Source of the DNA: Apostichopus japonicus
Lineage: Eukaryota > Echinodermata > Holothuroidea > Aspidochirotida > Stichopodidae
NCBI RefSeq assembly: GCF_037975245.1
Contig: NC_092580.1
Span: forward strand, 13,424,501 to 13,488,500
Direction: 5' to 3'
Length of the DNA stretch: 64,000 nt
In this document: in pieces, positions 1,052-52,700 of the stretch
Layout of the letters: each line of letters opens with the position of its first letter
How positions within the stretch are numbered: the stretch's first letter is position 1
The notes under the pieces: generated by a model
What the model was told of the DNA's origin: nothing
Seen by the model: only the letters and a program-made list of their open reading frames with translations
Database searches by the model: none
Program-made: the position numbers and the translations under genes

Positions 1052-4000
1052 GTTAAATTTGCAGAGGAATGGCTATTCAGTGAAATACCAGACAGTTGGA
1101 GATTTTACGTACTGTTACGCAGAAAGAGGGAGGCCTTCACAGAACGTACCTTCAATTTTATTTCTTCATGGCCTGTCAGCCTCAAAAGAGATGTGGTTTC
1201 CAATGGTTACGGTCAGTATTCACAAAACCGTCGTTGTTATTTATTGCCATCCGTGCAGAATTTGACACTTCACGGTGTTCTGCCATCCGCTTCGGAAGAG
1301 TAAATGATTAAAAATTAGGCGATTCAGAGCTATGCCAACCATCATTACAAGTGCATATGGTACTCAAAAACAATGGTTTCTAATATTTAAGCAACACCAC
1401 TAGATATAATTTTACTATCATACAATCCACATCTGCTGGTACATATATTGTATGTATTATAGATTATTTATGCAGATAAACGTTTAATGCATATATCAAT
1501 AATTACAACAGGCTATCCCATTACTTGCAACTTAGGTTGAAATCAATAAATACATTTCAAACAATATTTAAATTGTATATATAAATAAACACTGTAAGAC
1601 TGTGAACTAAATGTATAGATACAAAATCACACTGTATACTAAAGAAATATTTGGGTGCTAAATTTTGCCTTCAGGTATTTTGCAGATATCTGTATTAATG
1701 ACTCACTTCCATAAGTTTATACTACAATTTAACCTTTAAGAAATATTTCACAATTTTATGCTTCTTAATATTTTGCAACTCCTTTTTGGTGGGTACTTTA
1801 GCTTAGCTAATAGAATATTTCTTTTTAGTTCTTTGGTACTTTTTTTTGCCAGTTTCTCAAAATTGTTCATATCAGGAAACTTTTTTGGGAAGCCAAATCC
1901 CCTGACAGATTCATCTGTCCCCAACGGTTGCACGAGTTGCTCTAATATGCTTGCTTGGTGAAAAATACTAAGTGCTTAGAAATTTTACAATTGCTGTAAT
2001 TTAAAAGACTGGCTACATTAAACTGCTACAGTTGTGATATCAAAAGCCCCCCAGCACACTGCCCCAAGTGATCGAAGACTCGACTTGACCGTCGTGGCCT
2101 AGTTTTTTGATGATCGTGAAGATGCATGGTGGCCTGCAACTAAACCCTGCTCACTGACCGACCGATATGCGCAAACAACGACTGTTTCCTTGTAGCGACT
2201 AAATGCCCGGTTTAGGTCGCATGCAATTTTTCTTCCCCCCGGTGGGTAAAGGTTATGTTGGTTAGAACTGTGCAGTCTAAGTCTTGAACCATGGAGCCTC
2301 CCCATCAACTGCCTGCAAAGCGCTACAAGTTCATTTTTTTCCCGACTGAAGATGACAGGATTTAAAGACTGGCAAAACCTTGATCACTCCTAGCATTAAG
2401 CGATATATGCAAACTGCCCGACTATCTTGGATTTTCCAGGTAGCACCTGATGAGTTTAGTAGGGCCGTGATCATTAGGATAGTGTGCTGTGAGCATTATA
2501 ATAAAGCACTCTCATTCAATGTAACTTGTAAGTAATACAGTAAACGAAAACCTATTAAAAGAAGTGACTCTTTGCTCATGTGTGGGATGCCAAATTTGTT
2601 GGAATAATGAATATTATATTTTATCTACTTTGAAATTTTCACTCCGTGACTTTATATTGAAACTGCACTCTGTCGAAATAGCATCCGGTTGTATCGTCTG
2701 TACCTAATTAGAACATAAATTTTGCTCCTTCAAAGTACTGGAAAACTACTGTTTTCTAGGAAGATCAAACGTGAGTCTGATGTCGAGGGAAGTCAAAGTA
2801 TCGATACCTTGTCATTATGACCACTTGAGTGCTGCATGAACCTTGCCAAGGTTTTCATAATATGCAGTATTTTAAAGATCAAAACCTAAAATCTTGACTG
2901 CAATCTTCTTATATGTAGTCCGTAGTCTGGGTAGCAGTTCTGCACACTGTTTACGCTAGTTTTCCCACACTTTTCCACTTCCTCACTTCCTTCCCCTGTT
3001 TGGAAACATGGTTCAGAACCGATCACTTCCTCATTCTGTTTTGGCATCTCACGAGAGTGCTCGTTAGCCTCATGGTTTGTTTTTGTTTCTTGCTCTATAA
3101 TTTACATCATGAATGTAAACAACCAGTACATTTTTTGTGGTTTTAAAGAGAATTTCATTGTGAATGAATCTAGTCAGGACTTCTGCTGTACTTGCCAGTT
3201 TAAAGCTGTGCCGAAAAATTTGTCTGTTTACCAGTTTAATTGATTTGATTGGTTTGTTGTTTCTTTTTCTTCTTCCTCTGAAGGCCATCCCACGTGACCG
3301 CCACATTGTTTTGCTTGACATGCCCGGCCATGGAAACAGCAGTCGACGACTTGACTATAATTACTCTTTTGTAAACCAAGCATCGAGAGTAGCTCAGGTA
3401 AAGTAAATTAAATTCTCATCTATCAGTCAGATGACAGCCGTTCTCAAAAAGGCGGCCAACGGGCCAAAAGGGGGGGGGCAGGGGAGGGAGCACAATTGGT
3501 ACTAATTGGGTACACATGGTACCCCGTTCAGTTTGAGCACCCTACCGGCCCACCTTGCATGCACTTCTCGATCTAGGTGTGCAATGAGATTTGTGATTCT
3601 GTCTGGCTGTTTGCTTCAATGAATGTCTTTCTTTGGCTTTTTAGAAAAATTAAATGAGAAGCCTTGATTTTAGGATATATGAGTCAAGTCTTTTTCTTGA
3701 TTAGTGTTGTCCAGCTGTAGAAGATGTCATGTTCAAGCTTCAGTTTGCTTTAAAAAATAATACCAAACTGTGATGATAAGAGGCTGGACGTCCTTTCAAC
3801 AGGAAAGATAAGGCACGCCCCCCCCCATCCCCAGGCCTTACACCAACAACGATGAAAACATACATTGACATGAAAGGTTTGAAAATGAAAAAGACTACGT
3901 TTCAAGTTGTAAGACAGATAGTTTCTGTATACGACTAGTATAAGAACTCACGATTAAAGAGAAGTCAAATGGTAGAGACCAGAGGCTAAGATGCAGGAAG

Positions 4001-7000
4001 GGTCTGAAGTACTGTTGTAAGGGGTGTCCCCTTTCCCTCTGAGAAATTTTGTTGAAGTTTAAGGGTGCTTAGATGCCAAAAGGTGCTATATTTTTACAAC
4101 TTTTGAAACGATGTTGAAGAATTTTTGACTGGTTAGGCTGTAACCGCATACTATAATGCATAAATGTTGTATATTTTATGTACAGTACACTAAGAAATGT
4201 TTGTAATATTGTCTACCATAAGGGGGGATGGGGCTGGGGGGAGGAAGTGGAACACCGTAGGTAGTCTGTGATGTCATCACAGGAAATGTTCATTATTTAG
4301 ACTGTTAGAATCTTCTTCTTGCCCTGTCGTTGAAACCTGATACTACAGTTCTGCTTATTGCTCGACTGTCAATTTTCTCTGTAATGAGAATTTTTAATCA
4401 AAATATTATCTTGTGTAGATTATACTATTTTCCCCTCTGTGGATAAGTGATTGAAACATTATAAAGAAATAAAACACAGATGATACTTTCAGCTGAATGG
4501 CCCTGATGTCATTATTCACTCTGCTGTTGCCTGATATGCATTTACAAAGTATCATCACAGTAAAGAAAAATGCTTAGCTTCACTTTACAAGAGACTATGA
4601 GGATTTGGTTTTTAACCTAAATATACAGAAATTTCTTCAGCAATGAATTGTGTATTAAGCAGTCAGCTTTAAGCACACCAGAGGACCCTTTCATGTTTGT
4701 GAGTCCAAATTTTTTTCCAGTGACGTGAAAGTTTTCATTCCCCTTTTATCACTTGTTCTTCTTTTTCTCTTTAATTTTTTTTAATATTTTTGCTCTCCAT
4801 ATTTGTAAGATACTAAACAACATTGGCATATATGATGTTTCATTATTCTACCACAGAGATATTTCCTACCATGAAATATTAGCAATCATTTACAACAACA
4901 AGAACCAAAAAATAAATGAAAACCGCACCAAAATTGGGTCAACATATTTAGAGCTTAGTATCGAAGTTCCCATATAAGTTAACCATTCTTTGATTGCTAT
5001 CATCGCTAATATTGAAACTCACATTGAAAGAAGACAGTCGTTCAGTTTTTGTAGCATACGGTATATATGATATGTATCATTATTTTTAATTTATATCTAT
5101 ATATCCTGTGTTAAGTACCGCTCATTGACACATGAATAATCCCTCTCTCCTGCTATTAGTCATACTGTCCACTTTAAATAATTACAGGGAGACAGGAAAT
5201 CTCTTTTTCATTTTTAATAAACTGTATGGTTTCCTTTACCAATTGACATCCTTCCTCAAGGACTTGGTACACCTGCTTTTGATTCAAAGACAATTAAATA
5301 CCTCTCGTAAATATATATTTATGAGGTTATTCCCATTCTATTTTTTTGGTCATGGGCTGTTCTATTTTTTGTTTTCTTCTTCTTTTGCTGTAGTTTGTGA
5401 TCACTACTGGATTGGGTAAGAAGCCATTTCATCTCGTGGGTATATCTATGGGAGGTGGTGTCGCCGTGGCATTTGCTGCCACTCATCCCCGGGATGTCAC
5501 AAAACTATCTTTACTCTGTCCAGCAGGTATGGGGTTTTTTTTCTGCTTTTTAAAAAAAAATGTACAGTCTTAAAGGGTGTGAAGACTCACGCAAAAAGAA
5601 ACGTATTTATGCCTGTAATCTGACCTAGTTTCGAATGAGGTGTAACAGAAGTGTTAGACACCACCATCGATCCCAGAAAATACACACACAGCTTGCTACT
5701 GTCGGTAATTAGACAACTCCCTGCTAGTGTACAGTCAATACATACAGCTGCGGTCAATACCCACAACACAGTGTAGATACGATACAGCGATGGACATCTC
5801 AGGTCCAGCTAAAGATAACAAGGTATCACGTTTCATTACTGTCTGCATTTTGTAGCAACACGAACAAAACGTCACTTGCAAGTGACAGAAAGTTAACTTT
5901 TTCAGATGGCCGCACGCGGTTTGAGGCGAGTCTTCAATGCCTTTAAAGGTGGATCTATTTAATATAAACAAGCTAGAAAAAAAAAGGAGATGTTCAGAGA
6001 TGCTCAGACTGTAAAGGAGAAGTCTCTTTGTTAAAATCTGAAGATTTGTCCCAAAATTCAATAATTACATGCTATCGTGAAATTTTCTCTGTGTTTAATA
6101 AGATGGTGCTATGTTTGTGCTGTGATTAATATTGTGTATATATTAAGTGTCCTGGCCACAAATGTGAGATTGGAATGGAGTCATAATAAATTAATTGAAC
6201 TTCAATCAGACAGGTCTGTTCAGTTAAAGGAAGAATTAATCCAAAGTTACGCAAGACTAGTCCTTTCAGTTAAAACTAGAGTCATTCAGAAATTGGCCAG
6301 ACAAAGTTGACAAGCCCAGAGGTAAACTATTAGAGAGTGCTTGAAGACATTGTAATATATTGTAGGCACTCCTGTGAAATACTCATATAGTTCCTACATG
6401 CCCTCTTTAATAGAATATTCAAAGGTTGGTTCATTTGAAGGCAAAGGTGGAACAAACAGGTGTGATGTCATACTGTAGATGCACATGTACAAAAACTTTT
6501 TGTAGCCATTTTCTCAGTAGTTAATATATTGTAGGCACTCCTGAGAAGTACTCATAGAATTCCTACATGCCCTCTTTAATAGAATATTCAAAGGTTGGTT
6601 CATTTGAAGGCAAAGGTGGAACAAACAGGTGTAATGTCATACTGTAGATGCACATGTACAAAACTGTTTTTCCCCGCCATTTTCTCATTAGTTTACAATT
6701 TTTACGGTTTTCATTTTCAACCTAATTGGATACACCACCTGTCCACAGTGTGAGTACTGTACACCACAGTCTTACATTAGGCATGATTTTTGAACTTGAC
6801 GTCATCCTTATTTACAGTTATTTGAAATCCTACCTAATTCAAAAAGGTCAAAACATTTGAGTGAAAAATTTAAAAAGCAAAAAACATGTTTATTTGTCCG
6901 TGCATAACTATGACATCACACCTGTTTGCTTCAAGTTCACTTGTGGCACAGACTGTAAATCATTACAACTTACAGCAGGATGTTTAGAATATGTACTTCC

Positions 7001-10000
7001 TTCATAAAGTATAAAATGTATTCTTTTAATATATACAAGATTGGTTTCCAAATTAATTTTAACTACACAAGTCTTGTCGGGCTTAATACTTTATAAATAT
7101 TTTCATAAATTAGCCAGCCAAGTCTGGTGAAATGAACATTGAAGTTTGTTTTTAAAGCTTATTCTGTCAGGTAAGGTCAACAGAAATATGATCAAATTTA
7201 ATTGCATTAAAAAACTTAAAAAGTTATTATGTAAATTTAACAAAAATTATTACAAAATAGGAGTTTTCAAGCGAGTGTCAGTGTCCACCATTGAAGAGGA
7301 TTTAATGTAACAACAATTTTCTGATCAAATACTTCTTTTTGCGAAATCAAAGCTTACACCAGTAGGTTAAAAACAGATTATTAAACAGACGAAACCTAAA
7401 ATATATAATCCGACTTCTAAGGCAAATATACAAAAATGCCAACCATTCAGGATATCCCATAATTCGTACAGAAAAAACCCTGGATAAATGCAGAAATAGG
7501 ATTTTTGCTTATTTAGTGTGGATTTTGGGTGCACCCGTCAGTCTCAAAAGAATAGATCGCTGCTCTTAGAGCTTTGCGTAAAAGTCTCAACAGTCACATG
7601 TACCAGCCTGTCACAGAAAGTGTCACACTGTCAGCAACAGTCACAATTAGCAATTGTCAACAGTCTCACCAATCTGACAGTTGCAAAGGATTTCTTAAAT
7701 TTGAATAAGTGAGAATGTAGAATCTATTTTCAGAAGTTCCAGGGACCCAGATTGATTCGTTTTCCAGTCCGGCAATCTTTTGAAAATTTCATCGCAACAT
7801 CTTCTTAGAACTGTTTGTAAATGGAAATTGCCTTTCTAGTTTGACTAGACAATTCTCTTTGGGATCACTTTAGTCTAAAGAGATTCCGAGGTTTCCACAT
7901 ACATACATAATTAGTAAGTTTGTGGGTTCCTGACCTCCCCCCACCAACCCCCCCTTTTTGTTTGTTTGTTGATGTTTCTTTCATCCTGCTTCACTGGAGC
8001 AGGCTTTGCAGAGTGGATGAAGGGCGACTACATGCAGGATGCGAAAAAGGGCCTCTTAGTGACCGACTCGTCGTGGATGCCAATTAATACAGACGAACAG
8101 AGGAAGGCGATACCTTATCTCTTTCACGGTGCTGGGTTAAAAATTCCAAAATTGGTAAAGAAACCTGTCATCGCTCGATCCCACGCACATCACTCACGTT
8201 CTCATGTTTTTTGTCGTTCACTAACCATGCAGGTTTCCACACTCATAACGGGAGCGAGTACCTGCAGGACGTCGCTAAGGGCTTGATAGCCGCGGACCCC
8301 GGGAAGTTGCCCATCAGTGCCTCTGAGCAACATAAAGCGTTTCATTACATCTTTCATGTTCAGGAAGGAAAGGAAATTCCCAGACTGGTAAATCGCCTTT
8401 AAAATCCTGCCGTCTGGCCATTACCATTGTTTCTTCTCAGGTCATTTCTGTTTTATTTCATGTATCTAACTAGATATATTTCATGTATCTAACTAGATAT
8501 TTCACAGCTAACATTTACATATATACACAATATTCCCTAACCCTTCATCCTACTGTGTTACTTATACTCTTCTTGCTTGCTTGCTTGCTTTTCGGACACT
8601 TTGTTTGTTGTTTTCACTCTGTCTCATTTTAGTCACCGTTTATTTCATTCAGTTGACATCTCAAATGATGAAGGGGTAAAGCGCAACAACTTTTGAAACA
8701 CTTGACATTTTTCTTTGCATATTTTAAAATTTTAAAGAGAACATAGAAATTCATTTATAACAATTATTAGCAAACTTGTCGGGACAACTTTCAGTTTTTA
8801 ACTGCTACTGTCTCTAGAAACCTGCTACTGTCAAGTAAAGAACAATGAAGCAAACTCTTACATGAATTGGAGATTATCGGACAGCCTGAAAGTACGGAGT
8901 TTGCCCTTTGGCTTTACCCTCATCTAGTAATTCATTACTAAACTGTATCCCATATTTTTGGGTATTGTGTGAAAACATTTGAGAATTGCAGGAGAGTATT
9001 AAAGGTCCCTTTTGTGTACCCCTTCTGCTCTTCCATTCCATTATTCTCCCTCCATCAACCCCCCACCCCCCCCCTCTACCCAACCTAATGGATACTTATT
9101 CTGCAGTTCGATGTTAATATTAAGATTCCATGCCATCATCATATTAACCGGTGCAAAGTTTTCATGGTCGTCCGGGACGACCAAATTTCTCTTCTGATGA
9201 CAAAGAATCAGCTTTAGAGGTTGTTAGGTGGATGATCAAATTCAGATTGCATTGTACTTGATATACCCCCAAACAATTTGCAATTATTAATTGGTAACAC
9301 CATCCATCACTATGGAGATCAATTAGTGGTTACTCCTACTTTATGATCCACCCAAAACTGAGTTTTGTGGGCCCAGAAGTTGGTGTTCTATTCACCAACT
9401 TTATACTTTATACATCTCTCCTACGGTGTACGTATTAGTCATTCTTGTTTATTTTTGCTACATGTTTTTCAGACTCACCAAAGTCACTGTTTGGGACAAT
9501 CAAAAAGTAAAGCTTAGTTGTCCAAGGGAAAACGAGAAATTAAAAGAATTTTGCCCTCTGTACTAAGCATTACCATCCACGCTATTAATCGTCATAATAC
9601 GTATTCACATGATCTGAACCTGTAAGGTTCTTACTGTCACTATAAGTACCTACCAATGAAGACTTTAAAACTTTTTTTTTTTTCTTTCAATTTATAGTAT
9701 TCCTGGCTAGCATTTGAGATAATGTCGATGAAGAGAGACATTCACGGCAAAGGTAAGATGTTCTTTCATAGTTGGAAGACTTCTTAATTATTATTAATAA
9801 GCTCACATTTCTAGTTGTTAAGGATATTTTGAAGTGTCTGGTCTCTGCTAGAGCCAAAAAATAGATATTAGCTAATAAATCAGCCATACCAGTTATTGAT
9901 AAAAGAGCCATCATTCTGCCCTGATTCTAATATGCAAATAAGACTTGATCTAGTTTAATCTGCCTTCATAACTAATAAGCTGTCAATGTTTGCTTTGAGG

Positions 10001-12698
10001 AAGACATTCTCATGATATTAAAACATCGTGACATTGCTGCACTAATATAATAATAATAATAATAAAGTATAATAACGCTAGTATTATCAATGTAGCTTGT
10101 TTATGGAAACATATTTGTTTGACAGAGACATGTATGTTCAGGGAATTTTGTATTGCAGTCTTGAAGGCTCTGACTGTTACCTTACAAAAACAATTGGTTT
10201 CTGTGTACAAAAACTGTTATACATCTTTGCCAATCTTTGCATAGCATTTTGCAATGCGATGCCGGATGAAGTTTTCCCTGATGTTGCAAGAACTTAACAG
10301 CTTCTTCTTATCAACTGAGAAATGGACAAGACCATAAATTGTTTTTCAAGTTACATCTATTGATCTATTACATCAATCAATTGCATGGGTTAATGGTTTT
10401 AGAAACTGATATTAAGTACCTGAGAAAGTGGGTGTAATAATTGGATTGCGGGTTTCTTTATATGTTGTCAGTTTATTATGGGGCCTGATGGAGGAAAGCA
10501 GTTTATTCTGGCAATTCTAGAGCCTAATTCTAGAGCCCAATTCTAGAGCCTAAGAGTTCTCATCCAGGTTCAATATGTTATTTTTTTCTGTCTTTGCAGT
10601 TTCAAGTGACTTGGAAGCTGATGTGAACAACAAAGTACTTCACAGGCATATTACCAAAGTTGAAGCCCCAACACAAGTACTCTGGGGCAAATATGACAGG
10701 GTGAGTAGAATATTTGAAAATACAGAATTTACAATGACTTTTAAGGTATTGACACATCGGAAAGCTGCAGCCATAGATTTTCGTTGTCAGAATTTAGGTT
10801 TAGGGCTTATTTTTAAATCCACCAGCTTGTGCGGATTTTTTATATCAGTCACAAACAACATTTAATCAAAGAGAGAGAAAAAAAGCTGTTAGCAGAGATG
10901 CTGACTAGTTGTCTACTGCAAAAAAGCCAACAGGTGTAAGTAGATATGTAAAAGTTAGAGGGGCTTGACAGTTCAATCCTAGCAGGATCTTCTTTAGTGG
11001 CTGACTGAAATGAAAGCAAATTAAGAACCCATTAAGAGACAAACAGACAGACAGACAAAACTTTAAATTGGACAAATGAGCAATGAATAGAGAAACAATA
11101 GACAAAACAAAGAAGAGGCAAGATGATGAAAGGGAAGAGAGATGAGAGGATTAAGGGATTTGGAGATTAAACTCTAAGGGATATGACACCACATGAAAGG
11201 TCAGGCCCTTTAGCTAGAATTAATCGAGATTAGTCGCTAACTTAAAATCATGACATAAACAGACCAAGCATAGTCAATCGGCCACCCGATTCTCTGGTCA
11301 TGTCCGGTAATCTTTGCCTTTGTAGTTTTTCGTCTGCCTTACCGTGCTTGCTTACACAGTAGCAGCAGAGAGTATGATATCACTTGTAGACTGTATGTAA
11401 CCTTCACCAACAAATTGCGAATGACCGGGAACAATACAAAAGTCATAACAGATATCTTTTATCTCAAAAATCTTTTGTTTATTTTGACCGCATATAACTT
11501 GCATTTTATGGCCTGTTGCCTTGAAATGACTGCACTGGCTGATGTGATATCAAAAGAATTTTTTGATGTGACTGTTACCCAAAGGATGCAAATTTGTATA
11601 AAGTTGAACACATCTTTGATGATAATTGGGTTATGGAGATATTTGGAGATAGGGTGTGTGTGGTAGCGCTGATAGTCGACTCTTTTTTATTGTAGTCGAT
11701 TAATCGCATAGCTCTTCTCGTGATTACTCGGTTACAGTTATTACGTCATCACTGTCATATTTACATTGCAGAAATACAGTCAAAACAAATCTTTCTCCAT
11801 GGTGCACTGTCTTTATTTGTTCTTTCGTGTCTGGAAGTGTGGTGTCTAAAACATGTTTAAACATCTACCAAACAAAACCTGTGAAAGCTTTCAATCAACA
11901 ACGTTTCTTAAAATCGTTCATAGTAAATCAAAAACTTTCGAATGAATCTACGAGGCTACTACGACTACTAGCAATAATAAAAGCAAATGTGTAAACAATA
12001 AATAGATGAAGCGGTGTGATGATTAGTATGCAAAAGTTTTCTGTACAAGGATGTTCTATATTCTAGGCTAGGCTCTAGCCTAGCGCAAATGGCAGGCACA
12101 TTGAAATTAACTACACCGCAATCGACACACTCGATCAGACATCCGATAAATGTGATCCAGGCAGATCCGAGCAGATGCTTTACCGATTTTTCACACAGCA
12201 CAGTGCTAGTGTAGCATTGTGAGAACCTGTACTTTTGCGATATTTTGCTGACAAACTGCTTTAGTGTTGTTTTGATAGGTTAGGCTATTACTCAAAGCAG
12301 TTTATGTGTAGTGCTAGTTTGAAGTCGAGTAATCGCAACTTAGGTTTTGAGCGCGATTAATCGAACTTCCAAAGTGTAATCGCGACTCCTGGCAATTAAT
12401 CGATTATGACTATCAGCACTAGGGTGTGGGTGGGGGGGGTGAGTTGGAGCTGGGGAGGGGGTGCCTGGGGAAGTGCCAATGGTTACTAGTGTGACACCGG
12501 CCTGCAAATCTATTCCCCGAATGACATCAACGCCTGCTCTATCTTCTCCAGCTCGTCCACCCGTCAGGAGCAGAGGTTGTGAAGGCTGCCCTCCCTGCTT
12601 GCCAAGTTCACATGTTAGAGAACTGTGGACACACAATTTCTTACGACAGACCCTTCAGAGCTATGAAGCTCATCTTGGAATTTTTGGACAGTCTATGA
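1052..12698 (+). CDS. ABHD6: ABHD6-like monoacylglycerol lipase, 3' seven exons (5' end not seen)
   Basis: Alpha/beta-hydrolase resembling ABHD6, a membrane-anchored serine hydrolase that in vertebrates cleaves monoacylglycerols such as 2-arachidonoylglycerol. Exons read in frame: 1052-1211, 3284-3397, 5394-5526, then 8003-8154 or 8233-8387, then 9698-9752, 10600-10700 and 12552-12698. All have AG/GT borders and matching phases. Visible landmarks are the oxyanion-hole stretch SILFLHGLSASKEMW in the first exon, LLDMPGHGNSSR in the second, the nucleophile elbow GISMGG (catalytic Ser) in the third, the acid in LWGKYDR at the end of the 101-nt exon, and the base in LENCGH in the last exon, which ends LEFLDSL-stop. 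The N-terminal transmembrane segment of human ABHD6 (about 45 residues) is not seen and probably lies left of the window. About 13 cap residues matching human GLVDVRIPHNNF are also unaccounted for, so a micro-exon in the 8388-9697 intron is possible. Very confident in family; less so in exact exon 1 start (1052 or 1065). Confidence 0.93.
5574..5942 (+). mobile_element. TTAA-flanked MITE in ABHD6 intron 3 (369 bp)
   Basis: Bounded on both sides by TTAA (5570-5573 and 5943-5946), the target duplication typical of piggyBac-type elements. The ends are imperfect inverted repeats: AGGGTGTGAAGACTC on the left and, read from the right, AGGCATTGAAGACTC. It has no coding capacity. A second copy lies in reverse orientation at 25529-25835, with shared internal blocks such as GTTAACTTTTTCAGATG and GGTATCACGTTTCATTACTG. 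Confidence 0.78.
6350..6690 (+). repeat. Two tandem ~170-bp copies in ABHD6 intron 3
   Basis: A block beginning AATATATTGTAGGCACTCCTG and running through TTCAAAGGTTGGTTCATTTG and GTCATACTGTAGATGCACAT occurs at about 6352-6520 and again at about 6523-6690. The copies are nearly identical, indicating a recent local duplication. Confidence 0.85.
8003..8154 (+). CDS. ABHD6: ABHD6 cap-domain exon, version a (152 nt)
   Basis: Encodes Gly (split codon) then FAEWMKGDYMQDAKKG through GLKIPKL, part of the mobile cap over the lipase active site that follows the nucleophile exon. The acceptor is gagcag at 7997-8002 and the donor GTAAAG at 8155. It enters in phase 1 and leaves in phase 0. It is homologous to the next exon (8233-8387): same start (GF), shared Y-x-Q-D, KGL, PI, EQ-x-KA and IP-x-L, about 40% identical by eye. 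It is either one of a mutually exclusive pair or a constitutive exon next to a decayed copy; both copies are intact, which favours the former. Confidence 0.87.
8233..8387 (+). CDS. ABHD6: ABHD6 cap-domain exon, version b (155 nt)
   Basis: Second, diverged copy of the preceding exon: Gly (split codon) then FHTHNGSEYLQDVAKG through GKEIPRL. The acceptor is catgcag ending at 8232 and the donor GTAAAT at 8388. Entry phase 1 and exit phase 0 match version a exactly, and it has no stop in frame. Only 78 nt separate it from version a. Joining a to b shifts the frame and reaches TGA at 8284-8286, so the two cannot be productive together. Confidence 0.87.
9130..9470 (+). repeat. Dispersed repeat with GGTCGTCC core (copy in ABHD6 intron)
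   Basis: Contains CATGGTCGTCCGGGACGACCA and the tail words GTGTTCTATTCACC, ATACATCTCTCC and TATTAGTCATTCTTG. Related blocks occur at about 17540-17960, 22300-22640, 46890-47240, 55320-55480 and 57300-57500, in both orientations. No terminal structure was resolved. Confidence 0.6.
11659..12420 (+). mobile_element. hAT-like MITE just before the last ABHD6 exon
   Basis: The ends form an inverted repeat: AGCGCTGATAGTC at 11665 and, read from the right end, AGTGCTGATAGTC. AGGGTGTG stands on both sides (11651-11658 and 12421-12428), consistent with an 8-bp hAT-type duplication, though a GT-rich extension makes the left border uncertain. Subterminal CGATTAATCGC words recur. A 3'-truncated copy lies at 37913-38425. 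The element ends about 130 nt before the ABHD6 terminal exon. Confidence 0.68.
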
Positions 12699-33818: not shown

Positions 33819-34288
33819 CTACTCCTTCCAGAGCTCGTACATTTGCTGAGGTGAGATGTTTCCGCCGGTCAAGACAATGACCACTCTCTTGCCGATGACG
33901 TCTGGAATTTTGTTGAACATCAACGCAGCAAACGCTGCTGCACCGGCCGGTTCCACCACCAGGCCTCGTTCATACAGGTGCTTAGTGGCCCTGACCAACT
34001 CATCGTCACTGACCAACAAAACACCTTCCGTGAAATGTTTACAGTGGTTGTACGTTTTCCTCCCTGTGGGTATAATCAAAGCACTAGGTAAGGCTAGTGG
34101 CTATGTTGCGATCTCCAGGACAAAAATCTCCAGGGCAGTATGACAGGGGGGCACAAATACACATACTTCTGGGTGATGAGGGGGGGCTTATGGCACCTCA
34201 GAATAAAATCAGGGGCCATTCAGCCCTCCTTCCACCCCCCCACCCCACAGGCAGACAGAATATTACACAAATTTCTAGAATACATTAC

Positions 34289-34324
<36 letters not shown>

Positions 34325-34343
34325 GTATATGTATATATAAATG

Positions 34344-34410
<67 letters not shown>

Positions 34411-34701
34411 ATCGTAACGAGTTGGAAAATCAAGAACAGTGAAAAAACTTTCAGCCTCCACCGGGATTCGAACCACGGGCCTTCCGCTCTGTACACGGAC
34501 ACCCTAAGCACTAGGCTATGGACGCTGATTGTATGTCCAGAGGTTCGAAACCGGTAAGGAAGGTCGTAATTTCACTGTAGGCGTTTGTCACCTGTATCGA
34601 ACAATACTAGTTCTGTTTTTGGTGACATATTTTGCCTTGCTCTAGAGATCAAACATGATGCTAACCAACTCGAAATCATTTGTGATTCCTAAAGCCGGAT
34701 C

Positions 34702-34752
<51 letters not shown>

Positions 34753-37700
34753 GATACAACCAAAACAGTCAAAAATTCTTCAACATTGTTTAAAAGTTGC
34801 AAAAGTTTCTCATAAATTTGTAGTGCCCTCATTTTGGATACAATACATACTCTTTATTTTTTAGTTTTGTAACTATTTGTATGAAAAAGTTGTTATTTTC
34901 AAAAATAGAATTGTGAATAAAATGTGCCTCAAGAAATATCCAAATATTGTAATTTGTAGTACTGTACAGAATGAGGATCCATTTTGTTAGAAAGTTTGGA
35001 GGTATCTATTTTTGCTTGCTTCCTCATGTCCCTCTGCCTCTAAAAGGTTATGCCCTCACCATTCCTCCCTCCCTCCCACCCCTCTCTTGGGCATGTACTG
35101 AAGAAGCACACCACAAATTTTTTGTAGGTAGATCCACTTTACAGTTGTCAACAATTTTGAGGAAAATTCAAGTGAACTTGATTGAAAGAAGAAGATAATA
35201 TAAGATAAATTAGTGTGTAATGCAGTTTTAGGTAAACTGTCTGTACCACAGAGGAGAAGACAGCATTTTGAATCCGTCCATGATGTAGGACAACGACATC
35301 GGGCTTGTAACCTTACCTGCAAATGGGGGAGACAGACCAGACGCCACAGAATGTGAATTAGGTAGTTGTGCGGCTTCACCGTTCTGGAAGCTGAGATGCA
35401 TGGCATTGGCTGTGAATTAAACAGAAAGAGACAAAAACATTATTTAACAGGATAGATGATACAGCCATGAAATATATATAAAACTAACATGGAGAGACCG
35501 ATTCATCAGCCTTCCAATCGAAAAACAAATAAAGAAATATGAAGTCATTGGTCCAACCTCTCACTTTCAAAGCTCTGCTCCATGACACTGATATCTACAA
35601 TTTTTTATGAGAGATGTGTCTCACAGATCCACATCCACAGTGTCAAAACAAGACACAAGAACTTTTACGACCCAGGCCTGAATTTTATGCAACGGGCTAC
35701 TTGTCAGCTAAATGGACCTTTTTTGGATGCAAAGGAATTATGTCAATTACGAAAAGTACGAGAGAGAGAGAGCATGGGCACTTTATAAAAACCTGTTGTT
35801 ATTTCAATGAAATGGTCAAATTATCACTTTGACGAACAAGATTAGCTTCATAACATTTGTAGTACTTATAATGAATCTAACTAGAAGGACAATTTGGTCT
35901 ACTTTATCACAAGAAGAACTGCACTGTAGCAGGGGCGTATCCAGGGGGGGGCGCAACAGGCGCGCGCCCCCCCCTATTGGCCGTCACCCAAAAAAAGTTT
36001 AGCAAAAAAAAAAAAAAAAAAAATTGATGACGACCTTTATGTGAGATGTCGGTGATCGCTCAACCCCCCCCCCCTCCCGTATGCTTTATTTTTTGTTTGC
36101 CAAAAAAAGGTTCTGGCGAAGTTCGGCGGCATAATAGTTTTAGAAACATAGATGGTAATTGTGTTTGTATTATCACTATAAACACTAAATGACATGCCAG
36201 CCATACTAAATTGTGCATTTTGTGTCCATATTTACTGGAAATGTTGCTTATTATTAAGGTCGAAAAATGAATCACATATGGCCATGGGCGGCGATCCTGG
36301 GTGGAGGGGGGATATATCCCCCCATGAAAATGGGTGGAGGGGATGTAATGCACCATATCCCCCCCCCCCACCAAATGCCAGGGATAAGAATATTTTCATG
36401 CCTACATTTATGCATCTTCGTTAATGTACGGCTCTTTTTTAGCTTCATTTCTCGCCTACCATAAACGCAGTGCGATCTTTTCAAATAAAGCGTCTTTATA
36501 AAGCAAAAATAGTTGACTGTAGGCTTCATTGGCCCTATAACAACAAAATGTATTATTGATATAGTACATATATGCACTCTCGTAGTATTCATATAGGCCC
36601 TAAAGTAGGCCTACACACGTACATGTTCCCTCGAACAGCTGAGAAATCTCATGTAACCAGGGTAATGCTTAATACACGTTTCACCTGGATGCCCTAGCAA
36701 TCGGTACCTAGGAATGTGTAATTGTGTATTGCATGTGTATAGGCCTGTAATAGCCTGCATGAGGCCATTTTCTTCATCGAATAATATAACAGAGCTCTCG
36801 AACATTCTAACGTTGACAGGGGCAATTTTCCCAAAATAACACCCGAAATTAAAAAAAAAAGTATTTTGGATCCTGATTATGAGATATTTCGGACATGACA
36901 TCCCTATTTTAAAGTTGGGTATATGCCACTTGGAAACCTCGGGAAGTGCCGTTTCCGGCCATCTAGAGGGTTTGTTAATCCCAAAATGTTCTTGTACGCT
37001 TCGCGCCAACCCATGGTGGCGCTACGCTTAGATAGTCAACAAGGTCATATCCCCCCCCCACTCGGAAGTACGGATCGCCGCCCATGCATATGACACCATT
37101 TTGCATTTCAGCCCTTCTTTGAAAGCAAAAATTGTACACCCCTCCCCTTAGACCCATCCCCCAGGACGGCGATCATTCATGCCTGGCGCCCCCCCTATTG
37201 GAAAATCCTGGATACGCCCCTGCTGTAGTCAATGTTGTAGATTGTTTAAAACCATCGCTATGAGCCAATGTTGTAAATGTCTATACCACTTTTTGTTTCT
37301 TCGAAAAATCAGTCAAAATAGCTGGACTACACTGCCTAGCACCACATTTTTTAGGTAAGACTGGAAAGGCCTCAAAACTAACAAATTTCAAAGACGAATA
37401 TTTAAAGGACAAATAGTGTTGGATGTCATCAATGGGTGCTTTGTTTATATGAAGTTAAAATAAAAAAAGAAAATTTGTTCAAGTTATTAAAATATGAAGT
37501 GTGACATCATCATAAATTTAGCCTTTCCTGACATTTAACATGAAGGTGACTATCTTGGAAAAAGAGAATAGCTATAAAAGAACAACATTAAAGTTCTCAT
37601 TCAAAGTTGTTTTTCTAGTGGAGAGGGGAGAGGGGGGAGGGGAGAGAGGGGCTATGACAAATCAATGCTAACAATGTGCCTGAAGAGAATCAAATTTTCA

Positions 37701-40425
37701 TTCAAAAAACTAATATTGCGACATACCAGTTTCTGGCTCAACACAATATATTCTGGTGTCAGCTTTGCCCGAGAGTTTCACAGCTGCTGCTATTCCGGCT
37801 ACAAGACCTCCTCCCCCACAGCATACAGCTATGATATCTGGGTCTGGAAGGTCAGCTAGAATCTCTAGACCTACACTGACGATCAGAAGAGGCAAAAAAG
37901 TATATCAATATTAGTGCTGATAGTCGACTCTTTCTTTTGTAGCCGATTTATCGCATAGCTCTTCTCGCGATTACTCGGTTACAGCTATGACGTCATCACT
38001 GTCATATTTACATTGCAGAAATACAGTCAAAACAAATCTTTCTCCATGGTGCACTGTCTTATTTGCTCGTGTCTTAACGTGTGGTGTCTAAATCATGTTA
38101 AAACATCTATCAAACAAAAAATGTGAACAACTTTCAATCTACAACGGTTCTTAAAATCCTTCATATTAAATAAAAAACGTTTGAATGAATCTACAAGGCT
38201 ACTACAACTACTAGCACTAATGGAAGCAAACATGCAAACAATGAATAGATGTAACACCTTGTAGCGATGTGATGAGTATGCAAGAGTTTTCTGTAGAAGG
38301 GCACTCAACATTCTAGGCTAGGCTCTAGCCTAACGCGATAGCAGGCACATATTTTTCACACTAAAATTTAACTACACCGCAATCGACACAATCGATCAGA
38401 CATCCGATAAATGTGAACCAGGCCAGGATGAGGTAATTGTAAAAGTGTTTGAAGAAATGACAAATACATTTGGCAATTGTAAAAGATTAAGTTCTTACAA
38501 ATTTGCGAGTATAGTTTAGTTTAGTAGAAAAAAAGGATCAGGAGGGACACTCAAGTGAAGTCCCCATCAAGGATCCTATAGGAGAGGAAACAAACTGAAG
38601 GCACAAACACTCAGACTCAATTACAGTGCTTAAAGTGCTTGTCCAAAGCATTCTTAAACCCATTGACACTACTTGCAAGTACAACTTTCTCAGGCAAACC
38701 GTTCCACTCATTCACAACCCTATTTTTTATTCTGATTTAAATAACAAACAACTATTGACACTTTAAGCAGACAGTGAAAACAAAAGTACAAAGAAAACAT
38801 TCTTGTTTCTCTTCTCCCAAAATAAACACTCCTAGTTGCTTTCATTATTTCTATTCTCATAGTTTTCTTGTTCAGGAAACTCAGAAGGAGAAGAGGGATG
38901 GAGGGAACATCATCTGATTCAATATGATTGTATCTTACCTTCCATGTCCAGCAATGATGTCCAGGTCATCAAACGGATGGAGGAAATGCAGTCCTAGCTC
39001 TCTAACGTAACGGTCAACAGTCTGCATCAATTCTGAAGAGGGCACTCTTTCGACTGTCGCTCCATAACTCTGTAAAATAATGTTAGACAATACAATGTAA
39101 ATGATACTCACTCAAGTTAATACTACACTGGTACTGAAATGGAATCTTTTGAGTGCAATTAAAATTACCATTTGCTGATATCTAAAAATTGTTTTAGAAC
39201 AGAACATACCTCCATGATAATGGTTCGATCCATTGGAGCTGTCTCTGGTGTAAGAACTCTAGCTTTGATTCCCAGTTTATGGGCTGCATAACACAAGGCC
39301 TTCCCATAGTTGCCAGCAGACATGGTAATCACTTCTTTTTCACCGTCTCGGACAGCTTTTGGTAAATGAGCCAGTTGATTGGCTAATCCTTTTACCTTGA
39401 AGGAACCTGAGAATGTAAATTAAGATCTTGAGGAGCGAGATATAGAGAGGTATTTAAAAGGGAAATCACAGGTTATAGTAAATATCTGGATGATTTGGAA
39501 GAGCATGAACTGTGTATCTTGATCACTGATTATCTGAGGAGACTTCTATTTTGATTATTGTAACCAGGTAAGGTAAGAACTATATATAAGGCAAAGAATT
39601 ATGACAAAACTTGCTATGCAAATCGTCAAGCAAATTATTGCACTGCTATAAAAGATGTTTTAACAATTCATCAGGTTTCAACAGTCACCAGGTTGTTTCA
39701 TGCTTGTGGATTTATAAATGAACACTATCGAAGCACAATTACAAGTGTAGAGTTGCAACTGTCGGAAAATAGTCCTAAAGCGGGTTTTCTGGAGCACTTT
39801 GGGGTCATCATCAATCTTACTCATGCTTGGAAATTCGGAATCAACTACTGATCATCTAAAAATCTTGAAGATTAAAGGTGATTTAAGGCATTTTAGAAAA
39901 TTCTGGGTGAAACAAAGATTCTGCAACGAGAGCTGGTTGGGGAGCACTGTGCTAATCTTTGAGCTCTGGTGAGTAAGACATATCGATTGCAAATTTCTAT
40001 CGATGCTCTAGCTCTAGCAATTAACTTGTACAGCACGTTTTGAGAAATTGTTTTCATGATCTGAGGTTTGGAAGGAGGATTGGGAGATGGAAAGTAGTGG
40101 GGAAGGGATGGCAACCTTGTGGCACTTACAACTAAGACTGACCAAAACAAAACAATTATAAAATTCAAAAGGTTTCAATTTAAACTGTCACTTTCATGGA
40201 GAGATATATATCAGCAGAGCAGTTTAGAAAGTTTCGAATCAACTTACCTGTTACTTGAGTATTTTCCAACTTGAGGTATAACTCTACAGGTGTTCCTTCA
40301 TGGAAACGACTTTGAACTTGCTCCAGAAGCGGCGTCCTCGTGCACAGGAAACTCTTTTGTACCTCTTCATTAGCTGCTTTGATTTGCTCAAGAGAGACCA
40401 GCTTTAGCTCCTCAACATCTCCCAT
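33819..40425 (-). CDS. Serine racemase / threonine dehydratase-family PLP enzyme (330 aa, 6 exons)
   Basis: Fold-type II pyridoxal-phosphate enzyme, complete and in frame over six exons: 40248-40425, 39210-39406, 38939-39069, 37727-37875, 35317-35409, 33819-34063 (993 nt with stop). The start is [16 protein letters not shown] and the 330-residue length is normal for the family. Landmarks: the PLP lysine in [14 protein letters not shown] (Lys63), the substrate/cofactor loop SAGNYGKA (Asn92), the phosphate-binding GGGGL (189-193), [11 protein letters not shown] near the C-terminus and VLTGGN, where Thr replaces the Ser common in serine racemase. Cytosolic; the expected reaction is deamination of L-threonine/L-serine to the 2-oxo acid plus ammonia. 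The residue matching Ser84 of mammalian serine racemase is Ala90, which argues against racemase activity. Serine racemase-like is the main alternative name. Confidence 0.94.
34292..34406 (+). repeat. (TA)n microsatellite
   Basis: TA dinucleotides with two AATGTATATG interruptions. A shorter one follows at 34706-34745. Confidence 0.95.
34430..34530 (-). repeat. tRNA-derived SINE head next to (TA)n
   Basis: On the minus strand: CCATAGCCTAGTGCTTAGGG (A-box-like, 34502-34521), then GGTTCGAATCC (B box, 34464-34474). Spacing is as in tRNA genes, but cloverleaf pairing is not kept. A (TA)n tract at 34292-34406 forms its 3' tail. It lies in the last intron of the PLP-enzyme gene. Confidence 0.7.
35928..37224. 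mobile_element. Outer composite transposon in the PLP-enzyme intron (~1.3 kb)
   Basis: Perfect 18-bp inverted ends AGCAGGGGCGTATCCAGG at 35928 and ending 37224. Just inside lie GGCGC-rich runs on both sides. It encloses the smaller element 36283-37085. No coding capacity recognised and no clear target duplication. Confidence 0.72.
36283..37085 (-). mobile_element. MULE-like element, uninterrupted copy (803 bp)
   Basis: Ends CATGGGCGGCGATCC (36283) and GGATCGCCGCCCAT (to 37085). It is the inverted counterpart of 48831-50049; shared words include GGCCATCTAGAGGGTTT and GATCCTGATTATGAGATATT. It keeps an empty TTAA at 36669-36672, where the other copy carries a 373-bp insert. Confidence 0.8.
37913..38425 (+). 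mobile_element. Truncated copy of the 11659-12420 hAT-like MITE
   Basis: Starts AGTGCTGATAGTCGACTC and follows the first copy through TCGCATAGCTCTTCTCG and CATCCGATAAATGTGAA, then stops without the far inverted end. Its start lies 37 nt from the 3' splice site (37876-37877) of the fourth exon of the PLP-enzyme gene. Confidence 0.8.
38425..38724 (-). mobile_element. LINE 3' end: reverse transcriptase C-terminal remnant and tail
   Basis: On the minus strand 38724-38617 reads [33 protein letters not shown]-stop. This is the W-N-x-L-P ... V-N-x-F-K-x-x-L-D pattern that closes many LINE (jockey/CR1-like) ORF2 proteins. The following 190 bp to about 38425 would be the 3' tail. It is a 5'-truncated dead copy in an intron. 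Confidence 0.72.
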
Positions 40426-46739: not shown

Positions 46740-49700
46740 CTAGAGGACAGGGACTCTCTTATCTCTTTGCTTGCTTCTGACTTTAGTGAGAGCTTTAAAA
46801 GCGGCAAGGTTGTTCTGGTGCTGTAAAGAAAGGCAGAGAGGAAAGACCAAAATTACAACTCGCCAAATATATCGTAAACATTTTGGTATTTCCTGGTTGC
46901 CCCTCGACTACCAGGCCTAACTCTTCCCTTGTCCTAACAAACAAATTTGTTCCGTCCACCAAAAAATGTAGCAAAATAATAATGACCGATATGTACGAGA
47001 GATGCAAAGTTTTTGTGAATAGAACACCATCTTTGGGGATGGTACAAATTAATCAATTATTAATTAATTAATTACCAATTAATCAATTATTTGGTGGTAT
47101 GTAAGTTACAATGTAATCTGAATTCGGTGTAAATAACTAGTGGTCCGGCGATCCACCTCCAGAACTTATTTTGGTCGTCCGAACGGAAAGTTGTTCGTCC
47201 TCGGACGACCGTTAAATATTTGCCTTTCGTTTAAATCTGCATTTGTACTTTTGGTTAACTCTGACCAAGTCACATTGCTGGCTATGTCAGAGATCTATAT
47301 CGTAACAACAAGTTGGTCGCTTTCAAATGCTTGAATTATGATTCATTTAGTCCGATTATAAAAAAAAGTTTCCAGTCCAACAAATTTACTGTAATGTTTC
47401 CTTTCTTCATTTTTCAAACCTACGAGATCTATGCATTATTGTCATTGATCTTTGATCATAGATTTTGTTGGACTTAACTGACAGATTATGTTCACCTTGT
47501 ACCTAAACTTTCCTTTAATGTTCCACTGTTGTCTCACCCCGATGGTATCAAATCCAAATATAGTCTGTACTTTTCTATGCAACAAAAACTTGACTCTTTC
47601 ATCTAACTACTAATAACAACAAAACTTCAAACCACATGTGCTTTGGACCATACCATGTAACAGGGCTTAATCTACAACTGGAAGAAGTCCCAGTTCATGG
47701 CCCTGTGTTGATTTGCCACCTGATGGAAGGGATTAAAGGGAAGGAAATTTACCTATCCACTTAAATAAATGAGTCTGTTTGACTTTCTCTTTCATTATAC
47801 ACAAAATTATGGAGTCTTTTTCATTTTCTCAAGCAGATAAAATCTACCTTCATTCCCACCCTTCTTACAAAGTCCTGATATTAATTCTGTATCAGTTTTA
47901 TACAAACAAGCAAAATTTGTCTTTCAGTTGTTTGGCTCTTCTTTCAACGTTTGGCTCTACAGATGGAAGTAGTGAGAATACAGCATCACTGGCTAAACAT
48001 CTGATGCCTTCTTTCGTTTTTACTTTCTGCTCAATGATTCTGCCACCTACTGAACGGTCATCAGTCAAAGACTTTCGCCATGTGGAGAAGATCTCACATT
48101 TGACTTTGTGTGAGAGTGATAAGAAATAAACAAATCCATTTTCAAATTTAAGAATCTTACCCTCTCAAACTTGGTGAGCTGGTTTGATGTTCCTGGTATA
48201 ATGACTAGTGGATCACCTAAACCGAATATCTCTCTGAGTAGATGGTTTTCCTTCAGGTGAGTGTTTGTCCCAGATCCAAGGACCTCCCTCAATGCTGAAT
48301 ACTGGCGGCGTCTCACCCAACTGTCTAAGTCGATGGACTCCTGACCAAACTTGATGAGCTCGTACGGGGATTCGTTCGTCTAAACGAGAGAGAAAATACG
48401 TCAAATACAATGGCCCAATGACGATAGGGGTAATACGGCTAAATTTCCACCAAATAATCCTCTCCAAAGGTTCAAAAGGATACATATAAAGTTTATCACA
48501 CAAGGAAAAACATGCACGCACACACACAAACATAATGTGGTCACCTTGAACGGGATAAAGTACATGCGAATAACTTAAGAATCCTGTGATGAAACCTTGT
48601 TTAACATCACAGAAAAAGTTTGCTAGATGCAATTTAGCACTCTCACAAATTCATATTGAGGATGTTGTTTTACATATATCGCCAAGAACTACAACTGCGA
48701 ATTAACCAGGAAAGATTCTCAATTGGATTGAAAATTTTGTTTTTCACAAAAGTCTTTGCTGGGGGGGGGGGGTGGGGACACATGACTCCTAAAACCTTCA
48801 TGCAAGCTGTTATGTTGCAATGAAGCCATCCATGGGCGGCGATCCGTACTTCCGAGTGGGGGGGATATGACCTTGTTGACTATCTAAGCGTAGCGCCACC
48901 ATGAGTTGGCGCGAAGCGTACAAGAAAATTTTGGGATTTACAAACCCTCTAGATGGCCGGAAACGGCACTTGCCGAGGTTTCCAAGCGGCATATACCCAA
49001 CTTTAAAATAGGGATTTCATGTCCGAAATATCTCATAATCAGGATCCAAAATACTTTGTTTTTAATTTCGGGTGTTATTTTTGGAAAATTGCCCCTGTCA
49101 ATCTTGTTTCAGGCGCTACGTTAGAATGTTCGAGAGCTCTTTATATTATTCGATGAAGAAAATGGCCTCATGCAGGCTATTATAGGCCTATACACATGCA
49201 ATACACAATTACACATAGTTACATTCCTAGGTACCGATTGCTAGGGCATCCAGGTGAAACGTACGTGTATTAACAGCGGCGTCGGAAGCTATTTGGGATT
49301 GGTACGGAAGATCAGAGTGTGGCCATCTACCATAATTATCGGGGGGGTGGGGGGCGTTTGGAAGGTCAAACTACGCTACGCGCCACCATTGGTTGGCGCG
49401 TAGCGTAATGGAGAAAATTTTGAAAAAATGCCTCCCAGATTGCAGGAAATGGCACTTCCCGAGCTTTTCTTCTGTGCATTCTCCCTTGTCTGTTTTTGTA
49501 CCCGATTAATCTTCTGAAACACATTTTGAAGTATGTTTTCATTTTGGTTCTTTATTTTTTGCCTTTTTTTCTTCTTAGTGCTACTTTTTTCTCCTTTTTT
49601 TTTGCGCCGTGAATATTGGTCCGGCGAACCGCTCCGACGCCCCTAATTAAGCATTACCCTGGTAACATGAGATTCTCAGCTGTTCGAGGGAACATGTACG

Positions 49701-52700
49701 TGTGTAGGCCTACTATAGGGCCTATATGAATACTATGAGGGTGCATATATGTACTATATCAATACCGTGGGCGCAATAATACATTTTGTTGTTATAGGGC
49801 CAATGAAGCCTACAGTCAACTATTCTTGCTTTATAAAGACGGTTTATTTGAAAAGATCGCACTGCGTTTATGGTATAGGCAAGAAATGAAGCTAAAAAGA
49901 GCCGTACATTCACGATGATGCATAAATGAAGGCATGAAAATATTCTTATTCCTGGCATTTGGTGGGGGGGATATGGTGTATTACATCCCCTCCACCCATT
50001 TTCATGGGGGGGATATATCCCCCCCATCCCCCCCAGGATCGCCGCCCATGAAGCCATCACTAACAGCCGTCCATCTACACGAATTCACTGCACCAGGAAC
50101 GGCCAAGATCTATTAAATATCAAATTGGTCCTTATTATTACATCCATACATTATTTAGACAAACCTTATACTGGAACTTAACCAATTCCACCATGTGAAT
50201 ATCAAGCATATCAACTGGAATATATCAAGAATTGACCTTTGAACTCACACACAAGTTATTTTCTTGAAATGTTCCAAGTAAATATCATTACAGCAGATTA
50301 CCTTGCAGTTTGCACAAAGGCTCATCTGTATTGAGAATCGATGATTACCACCATCAATCGTTTAAAATGTACGAGATATGAAAAGTTAAATGGGATAGAG
50401 AGTTCTCCAGAAAATAAGAAGGGAAAGAACGACACACTGTATTTTCACACACCCCTTTCGGTCACTCTCCCCCACCCCCACCCACCTCCTCCTTACTACC
50501 CCTCCCCTCCTCCTCCTCCTCCTTACTACACCCCCTCCTCCTCCTCCTCCTTACTACCCCTCTGTACTTATTCTTGCCTTATGTGAATTCACTGAGTGTA
50601 AGAAACTAACTGAAAGGCCCACAAAGAAACTCAAACTGGCAGCCAAGACAGTCATTCTGCTTTCTGATGGCCTACCTCAATGGTCTTCATGATATCTCTG
50701 AATGATGATCTCTGTTGTCGTCTGTCTTTCTTAGCTCTGTATTTGTTACTGTCCGTAGCCAGCTCCTTCAGCTTAGCCATTAACTCATCCATGTCATCTC
50801 CATAAAACTCCTGGAAAAGAAGAGAGAAGAGAGAATTTAGTTATAGCAGCATTTGGTTGAGTTGGACAGCTTGTAATGTCTCCTCCAACATATCGTCCCT
50901 TGTTTCGCGTACTGACGAATGTTAGAAAGTTATTTATCACGATCCAAATCAATTCACTGCTTTGCAACTGAATGTTTGATCACAAATAATACCTTTTAAG
51001 CAGTATCTATAGATTTATGTTACAGAAAACATATTATAGTTTATAGACGTTTCAAATTTAAAGGATGTAGAACAATTTTAAGGGCATATAAATGTTTTAA
51101 AAACATTCGTCACTACGTAAAACAAAATAAAATAATTTGCATATTCGTCAGTGCGTGAAACAAGGGACGATATATATGCACGACGAGTACAAAGTGTGTT
51201 TGTGGTTTGCAGCATTTCTGTTACAGAAAGTGCAAACTATCTCAAGAAACTTCATGTGCTGTCTTTTAAGAAACAATTAGAAGAAGCTTGGCATTACGCT
51301 CGCAACAACTATGTAGAAGATTCATCAATAGGTCTACCTTAAAGTATTCATAAAGCCAATTAAAACCAATTAGAGTAGTTATCTCTTGAATTGTACCTTT
51401 ATGAGACAAGACAGAAATAGTTAGTGTTTAATATGGACCAAATGTCGCAACAATGTATCTGGTGAAAAGCAGACTTCAGGGGTTGCAACGAAATTTTACA
51501 CAATTTGATTGAACTGTCATGATTCTGTTGCCCAGACAGGTATTCATGCTAATATTAATCAACTGCAATTTTCAGCAAACTGAGCTAATTTATGAATATT
51601 TCTCATGAATATATTCACACACTCATTTATCTTCTCATAGAAAGTCTCTGAAGGGACATTGGGAAATGTCTGTAAATATATTGCTTTTTTCACCAAATCT
51701 GCTCACCTCATCTTCCTCCCTGGCTAGCTCATAAAACAGAGCTATCGTTTCGCCGGCCACAATCCTTAGGTTAACATCATCTGATTCTAGAAGCTGCGGC
51801 AACTTGGGTAAATGACTACGCATGGAAGAGGTAAGGTCAAAGGTCATACCATGCATGATAACGAGGCCATCAACCAGCCCCGATTACATTATCATTACTA
51901 TGATTGTTAATTTATCAGCATCATAGCAGCCTTTGAATACTATCAACGAACAATCTTGACTTTGCCGCTCTTTATCTTTCTTAAGTAAACATATTTATCA
52001 GAGTATGTCATCATAAACTCCATTGCATGATGTGATGTTTAAGTAACACATGATAATCTTATCTCTACAATCAATGCATTTGATCTACCCTATTCACAGA
52101 TTAGCAAACAAACTACTCAACTATTCCCATGGGTGCCACTTATAAGTTCACCAGCATCGTACAGATGCACAATGATAGAGCTTCTACACAAGTTCAAAGA
52201 TTTGTCACAGGTTGAAACTCACAGAACATTTGGTATCATAAGTGTTCCATGACAGAAAGAAAACTTAAAAACATAAAAGAAAAAACAGCTATACACAAAA
52301 CAGTGAACACTAAACAAGTCACTGGCTTATTACTGCACTGCTTTAGGAAGAAATTACACCACTGCCTTAGGAAGAAATTACACCACTGCTTCAGGAACAA
52401 ACTACACCACTGCTTCAGGAACAAACTACACCGCTGCTTCAGGAACAAACTACACCACTGCTTCAGGAACAAACTACACCGCTGCTTTAGGAACAAATTA
52501 CACCGCTGCTTTAGGAACAAATTACACCGCTGCTTTAGGAACAACATGAGCAACAAAAGCTTCATCCCAAGAGTACCATATAATTTAGATTCTGACAGAG
52601 TCACATGTGTCATTTTCCTTTTGCATGGTATCATAAAAAAGTGACCAACCACCATATTTCTAAAAGAAACCCATTGGACATTGAAGTTTACATTGCTAAT

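Follow-up and report, generated by a model that had tools for sequence, protein, structure and literature searches.

Candidate mutually exclusive lid exons in an ABHD6 gene of the sea cucumber Apostichopus japonicus

The ABHD6 gene and its surroundings

The stretch of DNA analyzed in this report ("the window") comprises 64,000 nucleotides of the Apostichopus japonicus assembly GCF_037975245.1 (contig NC_092580.1, positions 13,424,501 to 13,488,500, forward strand). Its plus strand carries most of one ABHD6-like gene (Table 1). On the minus strand lie a gene for a PLP-dependent enzyme like serine racemase/threonine dehydratase (Pfam PALP; 33819-39419) and a gene of the interferon-related developmental regulator (IFRD) type (46746-54670), the latter detected as seven separate matches (E <= 5.5e-4). 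A weak eighth match to IFRD was found at 56152-56256 (E 0.17).

Judged by homology, the gene is ABHD6, as the original prediction had it. With the products of exons 2-7 as queries, the best match among solved structures for both predicted isoforms is human ABHD6 (7OTS; E 1.4e-42 for the form with exon 5a and 9.9e-43 for that with exon 5b), and the runner-up is the bacterial protein PlaF (6I8W; E 5.7e-24 and 2.2e-24, respectively). In isoform b (exons 2-8), the Pfam domain Abhydrolase_1 extends across residues 31-271. In the core, 62 of 129 aligned columns are identical to 7OTS (one gap column), and the GISMGGG and WGKYD motifs align with this structure, which bears the S148A substitution. The histidine of the ENCGH motif in exon 8 is presumably the triad histidine, given the motif and the human sequence. 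On this evidence, a Ser-Asp-His triad is present in exons 4, 7 and 8, which are common to both forms; its human counterpart consists of Ser148, Asp278 and His306 (PMC9412472).

The first coding exon is modelled. The segment in question encodes a hydrophobic stretch and has plausible splice sites that join it to exon 2 in frame; a tblastn search with the N-terminus of human ABHD6 gave no significant match at this position. Because this exon lies upstream of the window, the exon at 5394-5526, which had been called exon 3, becomes coding exon 4 in our model.

Table 1. Exons of the ABHD6 gene model and associated features (window positions unless noted)
Feature	Position	Strand	Length	Remarks
Coding exon 1 (modelled)	L004:9603-9811, just upstream of window			Predicted from hydropathy and in-frame joining only
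Coding exon 2	1052..1211	+
Coding exon 3	3284..3397	+
Coding exon 4	5394..5526	+		Nucleophile elbow GISMGGG; phase 1 end within CPA/G
Exon 5a (lid segment a)	8003..8154	+	152 nt	Phase 1 to 0
Intron between 5a and 5b	8155..8232	+	78 nt
Exon 5b (lid segment b)	8233..8387	+	155 nt	Phase 1 to 0
TGA met on joining 5a to 5b	8284..8286	+		Followed by 101 nt of exon 5b
Coding exon 6	9698..9752	+		Entry in phase 0
Coding exon 7	10600..10700	+	101 nt	Catalytic Asp (WGKYD)
Coding exon 8 (last)	12552..12698	+		Likely catalytic His (ENCGH); stop codon TGA

Between exons 4 and 6 the gene has two adjacent exons, 5a and 5b, whose predicted coordinates, lengths, phases and splice dinucleotides (8003-8154 and 8233-8387) were all reproduced. 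In the full gene model, including the modelled exon 1, the frame stays open with either exon alone (356 aa with 5a, 357 aa with 5b), and the product is truncated if both or neither are used; the contention that exactly one exon is needed thus withstood scrutiny in each of its parts. Joining 5a to 5b leads to the predicted TGA, and skipping both yields VFLASI*, whose stop codon begins at 9715. This stop leaves 35 nt of exon 6 to run, and exon 7 still separates exon 6 from the last junction. Under the usual 50-nt rule for transcript decay, the double and null products are therefore both expected decay targets.

The location of the pair in the cap, or lid, domain was likewise borne out. The lid of human ABHD6 spans Gly175-Ser255, with Val220-Ile237 as the lid region at the tunnel entrance (PMC9412472). 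By alignment, the exon pair corresponds to human residues 175-227, so that it starts at the first lid residue and covers about 53 of the 81 lid positions; eight of these are the opening residues of the entrance region. This mapping onto 7OTS combines sequence alignment with published residue numbers. The CPAG motif firmly places the start at Gly175; the end near 227, which is less certain, comes from a weak alignment of the lid. The two segments differ in composition, lid a having two Trp, three Met and one His, and lid b five His and no Trp or Met.

Relationship and age of the two lid exons

Exons 5a and 5b are clearly homologous. A tblastn search of the window with the 51-52-residue segment of either exon finds the other (E ~4e-10), and 22 of 51 residues are identical; at 43%, identity is a little above the roughly 40% originally given. 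No third copy was seen among the best 25 window matches per query at E up to 50, the runner-up reaching E 0.37 with query a and 0.077 with query b. Two alternative explanations were rejected. A chance resemblance or pseudo-exon is ruled out by the match between a and b together with the neutral simulation described below, and an assembly artefact in which two haplotypes stand in tandem is ruled out because DNA identity between the exons, at 54%, is far below the allele level.

Several observations speak to the age of the duplication. Synonymous sites are saturated (pS 0.75, pN 0.39; the corresponding dS of 5.3 is not a usable figure). In simulated neutral evolution that started from exon 5a and kept the number of changes equal, none of 5000 runs attained 22 identities, and 4428 acquired a stop codon. 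Further, ungapped comparison of the 78-nt intron with stretches of equal length before exon 5a and after exon 5b shows no clear resemblance (37% and 36%). Given the saturation, the neutral runs and the dissimilar flanks, the duplication is, by these measures, old, and both copies are maintained as protein. Human ABHD6 shares the core fold, the triad and the position of the lid with the sea cucumber protein, but each segment is identical to the human lid at only 7 of 50 positions. Since a and b are closer to one another than either is to the human lid, the duplication most likely took place after the split from vertebrates.

The short intron and the choice between exons

Tandem exclusive exons are a known class, mostly ancient in human (PMC9741552). 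In the scheme of PMC5740500, such exons are neighbouring, internal, similar in sequence and length and equal in phase, and their joint inclusion is absent or frame-breaking. All of the former properties are found in 5a and 5b, and their joint inclusion breaks the frame at the TGA noted above. On this anatomy, we think it very probable (roughly 0.8) that 5a and 5b of this echinoderm ABHD6 form a genuine pair, both used and mutually exclusive. The original prediction drew the same conclusion from the frame, and the anatomy supports it strongly; frame incompatibility by itself, however, merely spoils the wrong transcripts.

A likely cause at the level of splicing is the intron between the two exons. 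The gene's seven remaining introns measure 847-2476 nt, versus 78 nt here. For a wider view, 49 intron lengths were estimated from adjacent myosin, TCP1 and GNB1 matches in the same genome (all rows of two match sets, 70 and 57, and 7 of 42 rows of another; 65 of 186 myosin candidates scored), a method that may overlook very short introns within one match. One estimate of 99 nt was set aside as probably no intron, since one open frame spans it; the minimum of the remaining 48 is 183 nt. The neighbouring PALP gene has one gap of about 150 nt, one flank of which is a weak match (E 0.035). Many animals, however, do splice introns close to 78 nt in length.

Within this intron, candidate branch adenines, here consensus matches to yUnAy only, are found at +42 (CTCAC, 8196) and +50 (CTCAT, 8204) from the donor of exon 5a. 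They lie 37 and 29 nt from the acceptor of exon 5b and are the only two at a normal distance from it; further matches at +66 and +70 stand 13 and 9 nt before that acceptor. Work on vertebrates has proposed a steric limit of about 50 nt between a branch point and the upstream donor (PMC7969005). We propose the following scheme. An old tandem duplication copied the exon that encodes roughly the initial two-thirds of the lid, leaving an intron that is probably too short for the 5a donor and the 5b branch point (42-50 nt) to be used together. Because these two elements would be too close, exon 4 would splice to either 5a or 5b, each of which would then continue to exon 6, and stray double or null transcripts would run into early stops. 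We put the odds that steric crowding in the 78-nt intron is what causes the exclusivity at about even. Use of the motif at +66 or +70 would lift the steric bar.

Nearly as credible, though falling somewhat short of even odds, is that the pair is real and used and that frame, transcript decay or trans-acting regulators enforce exclusivity without any crowding. The stop codon reached on double inclusion lies 101 nt before a junction, and the two branch-like motifs beyond 50 nt would permit such an arrangement. Among 629 human exclusive clusters, moreover, 377 have exons not divisible by three, and only 57 show branch point proximity (<50 nt) (PMC5740500). Against this stand the positions of the best-placed motifs, +42 and +50, and the outlying length of the intron. 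In addition, reads that join the two exons occur in just 83 of the 377 frame-breaking human clusters (PMC5740500), and frame is therefore seldom the whole story.

The splice sites themselves bear on a different possibility, namely that just one exon is functional, its duplicate being nearly unused or in decay. The donor of exon 5a (TTG/gtaaag) scores 4.42 bits on generic weights, the weakest of seven in-window donors scored, and 9% of 612 intronic GTs do at least as well; the donor of 5b scores 7.20. Its weakness suggests that 5a could be a minor form, and the difference between the two donors that 5b may be the default. This possibility we consider improbable. Both exons retain open frames, splice dinucleotides, phases and protein similarity at saturated synonymous divergence, and a dead copy would hardly be so durable when so many neutral runs acquire a stop. 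Least credible of all is that 5a and 5b are sometimes used together, a cryptic acceptor in 5b restoring the frame and enlarging the lid: seven in-frame AGs lie within 5b, but none is preceded by a good pyrimidine tract (by eye, unscored), and the product would hold more than one lid segment.

Other sources of exclusivity were also considered. Incompatibility between U2 and U12 sites is not supported: both donors are of the form gtaaa in GT-AG introns, unlike the U12 donor consensus. No notable local RNA structure was found in the 78-nt intron (z +1.59) or in the segment 8120-8260 (z -0.58; 51 of 200 shuffles fold equally well).

Several sequence elements were noted in the introns around the pair. 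ACTAAC occurs at 8220-8225, just 5' of the 5b acceptor; it is the sole plus-strand ACTAAY within 8155-9697, and we estimate a chance of about 4% for ACTAAC in a 78-nt intron. It resembles motifs bound by STAR/QKI and SF1 proteins. The intron upstream of 5a contains two direct 149-nt copies (6353-6670), 95% identical and 169 nt apart; in addition, 6448-6472 and 6909-6933 match each other over 25 nt in inverted orientation. Past 5b, 66 nt into the intron, the 23-mer TATTTCATGTATCTAACTAGATA is perfectly duplicated in tandem (8454-8499), which could be a doubled splicing element or chance.

Lid function, comparable systems and copy number

The predicted outcome of the exclusive choice is a pair of serine hydrolases, both membrane-anchored, that would share the triad and differ in lid and tunnel entrance, and the two would therefore probably differ in lipid preference or regulation. 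A switch in lipid specificity, which the original prediction had raised, is plausible because the exon encodes the greater part of the lid together with the beginning of the tunnel-entrance segment; we hold a difference in lipid preference between the isoforms with low to moderate confidence. ABHD6 takes part in the turnover of endocannabinoids and phospholipids, and lids govern substrate access in alpha/beta hydrolase lipases. More tentatively still, a splicing choice regulated by tissue or physiological state (e.g., dormancy or gut regeneration) might retune the lipids cleaved, an idea that we regard as rather doubtful at present. If true, a choice between, for example, monoacylglycerol and lysophospholipid or bis(monoacylglycerol)phosphate would constitute a splicing-controlled lipase lid. 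Two natural lids for a single catalytic core, exchanged by splicing at the first residue of the lid, would amount to a ready-made test of what lids do.

PlaF (PA2949, 6I8W) offers a structural parallel. In this bacterial ABHD6-like phospholipase, the lid is part of the active site cleft and varies among homologues, and I160, D161 and A163 hydrogen-bond the catalytic serine (PMC9132575). In our alignment these three residues fall just before the lid junction, on the exon 4 side. PlaF and sea cucumber ABHD6 share the fold and, by the modelled exon 1, a putative membrane anchor; the PlaF gene, being bacterial, has no exon choice.

Exons 2 and 3 of alpha-tropomyosin are mutually exclusive because the branch point is too near the upstream donor. 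That system has a long distance from branch point to acceptor, and it concerns a structural protein, whereas ABHD6 is an enzyme. Exons 4a and 4b of vertebrate OGDH are, like the present pair, duplicated tandem exons of a metabolic enzyme with a short intron between them; their branch points lie 25-41 nt from the donor in human and 46 nt in sunfish, under the limit of about 50 nt (PMC7969005). The OGDH intron is longer, however (118-131 nt in birds and mammals), and its branch points are far from the acceptor, as opposed to 37 and 29 nt for the best-placed motifs in ABHD6. The ABHD6 pair offers a compact example, from outside the vertebrates, of how exclusive splicing may be imposed by a very short intron.

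A functional precedent comes from exons 6a and 6e of COQ-2 in C. elegans and helminths, an exclusive pair of 134-nt exons whose choice controls the quinone made (PMC7434440). As in ABHD6, the pair belongs to an enzyme and its length is not a multiple of three, and the COQ-2 exons swap helices presumed to line the substrate tunnel. The fold and the pathway are different, and splicing and product have been measured for COQ-2, whereas the ABHD6 pair is known from sequence alone. The sea cucumber gene would join COQ-2 and OGDH among enzymes with catalysis tuned by exclusive exons.

We know of no lid exon pair in vertebrate ABHD6, and we found no report of an exclusive exon pair in ABHD6 among the open-access papers examined by title and start of abstract. 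Scans of genome contigs turned up no relative with the pair, one of 11 matches being gammaproteobacterial (32% identity over 66 residues); scans of viral contigs with each exon gave 17 and 22 pattern matches, none of which was confirmed.

Within the sea cucumber genome (671.58 Mb, 35 contigs), no second ABHD6 gene was found among the best-scoring candidates, and redundancy through such a gene was rejected on this basis. Seven of the eight matches at E <= 0.001 are the ABHD6 locus itself, and the eighth, on contig C3, is 27% identical (E 7.5e-4). A query with exon 5b matches solely itself and 5a at E <= 10. The mitochondrial contig (16,099 bp) carries a COI that is 89% identical to an echinoid-type query and has no stops when read with code 9, that of echinoderms and flatworms. 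In addition to this contig, the same genome contains two COI-like stretches that are adjoining pieces (L007 and L008; C29:15408-16125) on a 31-kb contig and that represent either mitochondrial sequence copied into the nucleus or a misassembly.
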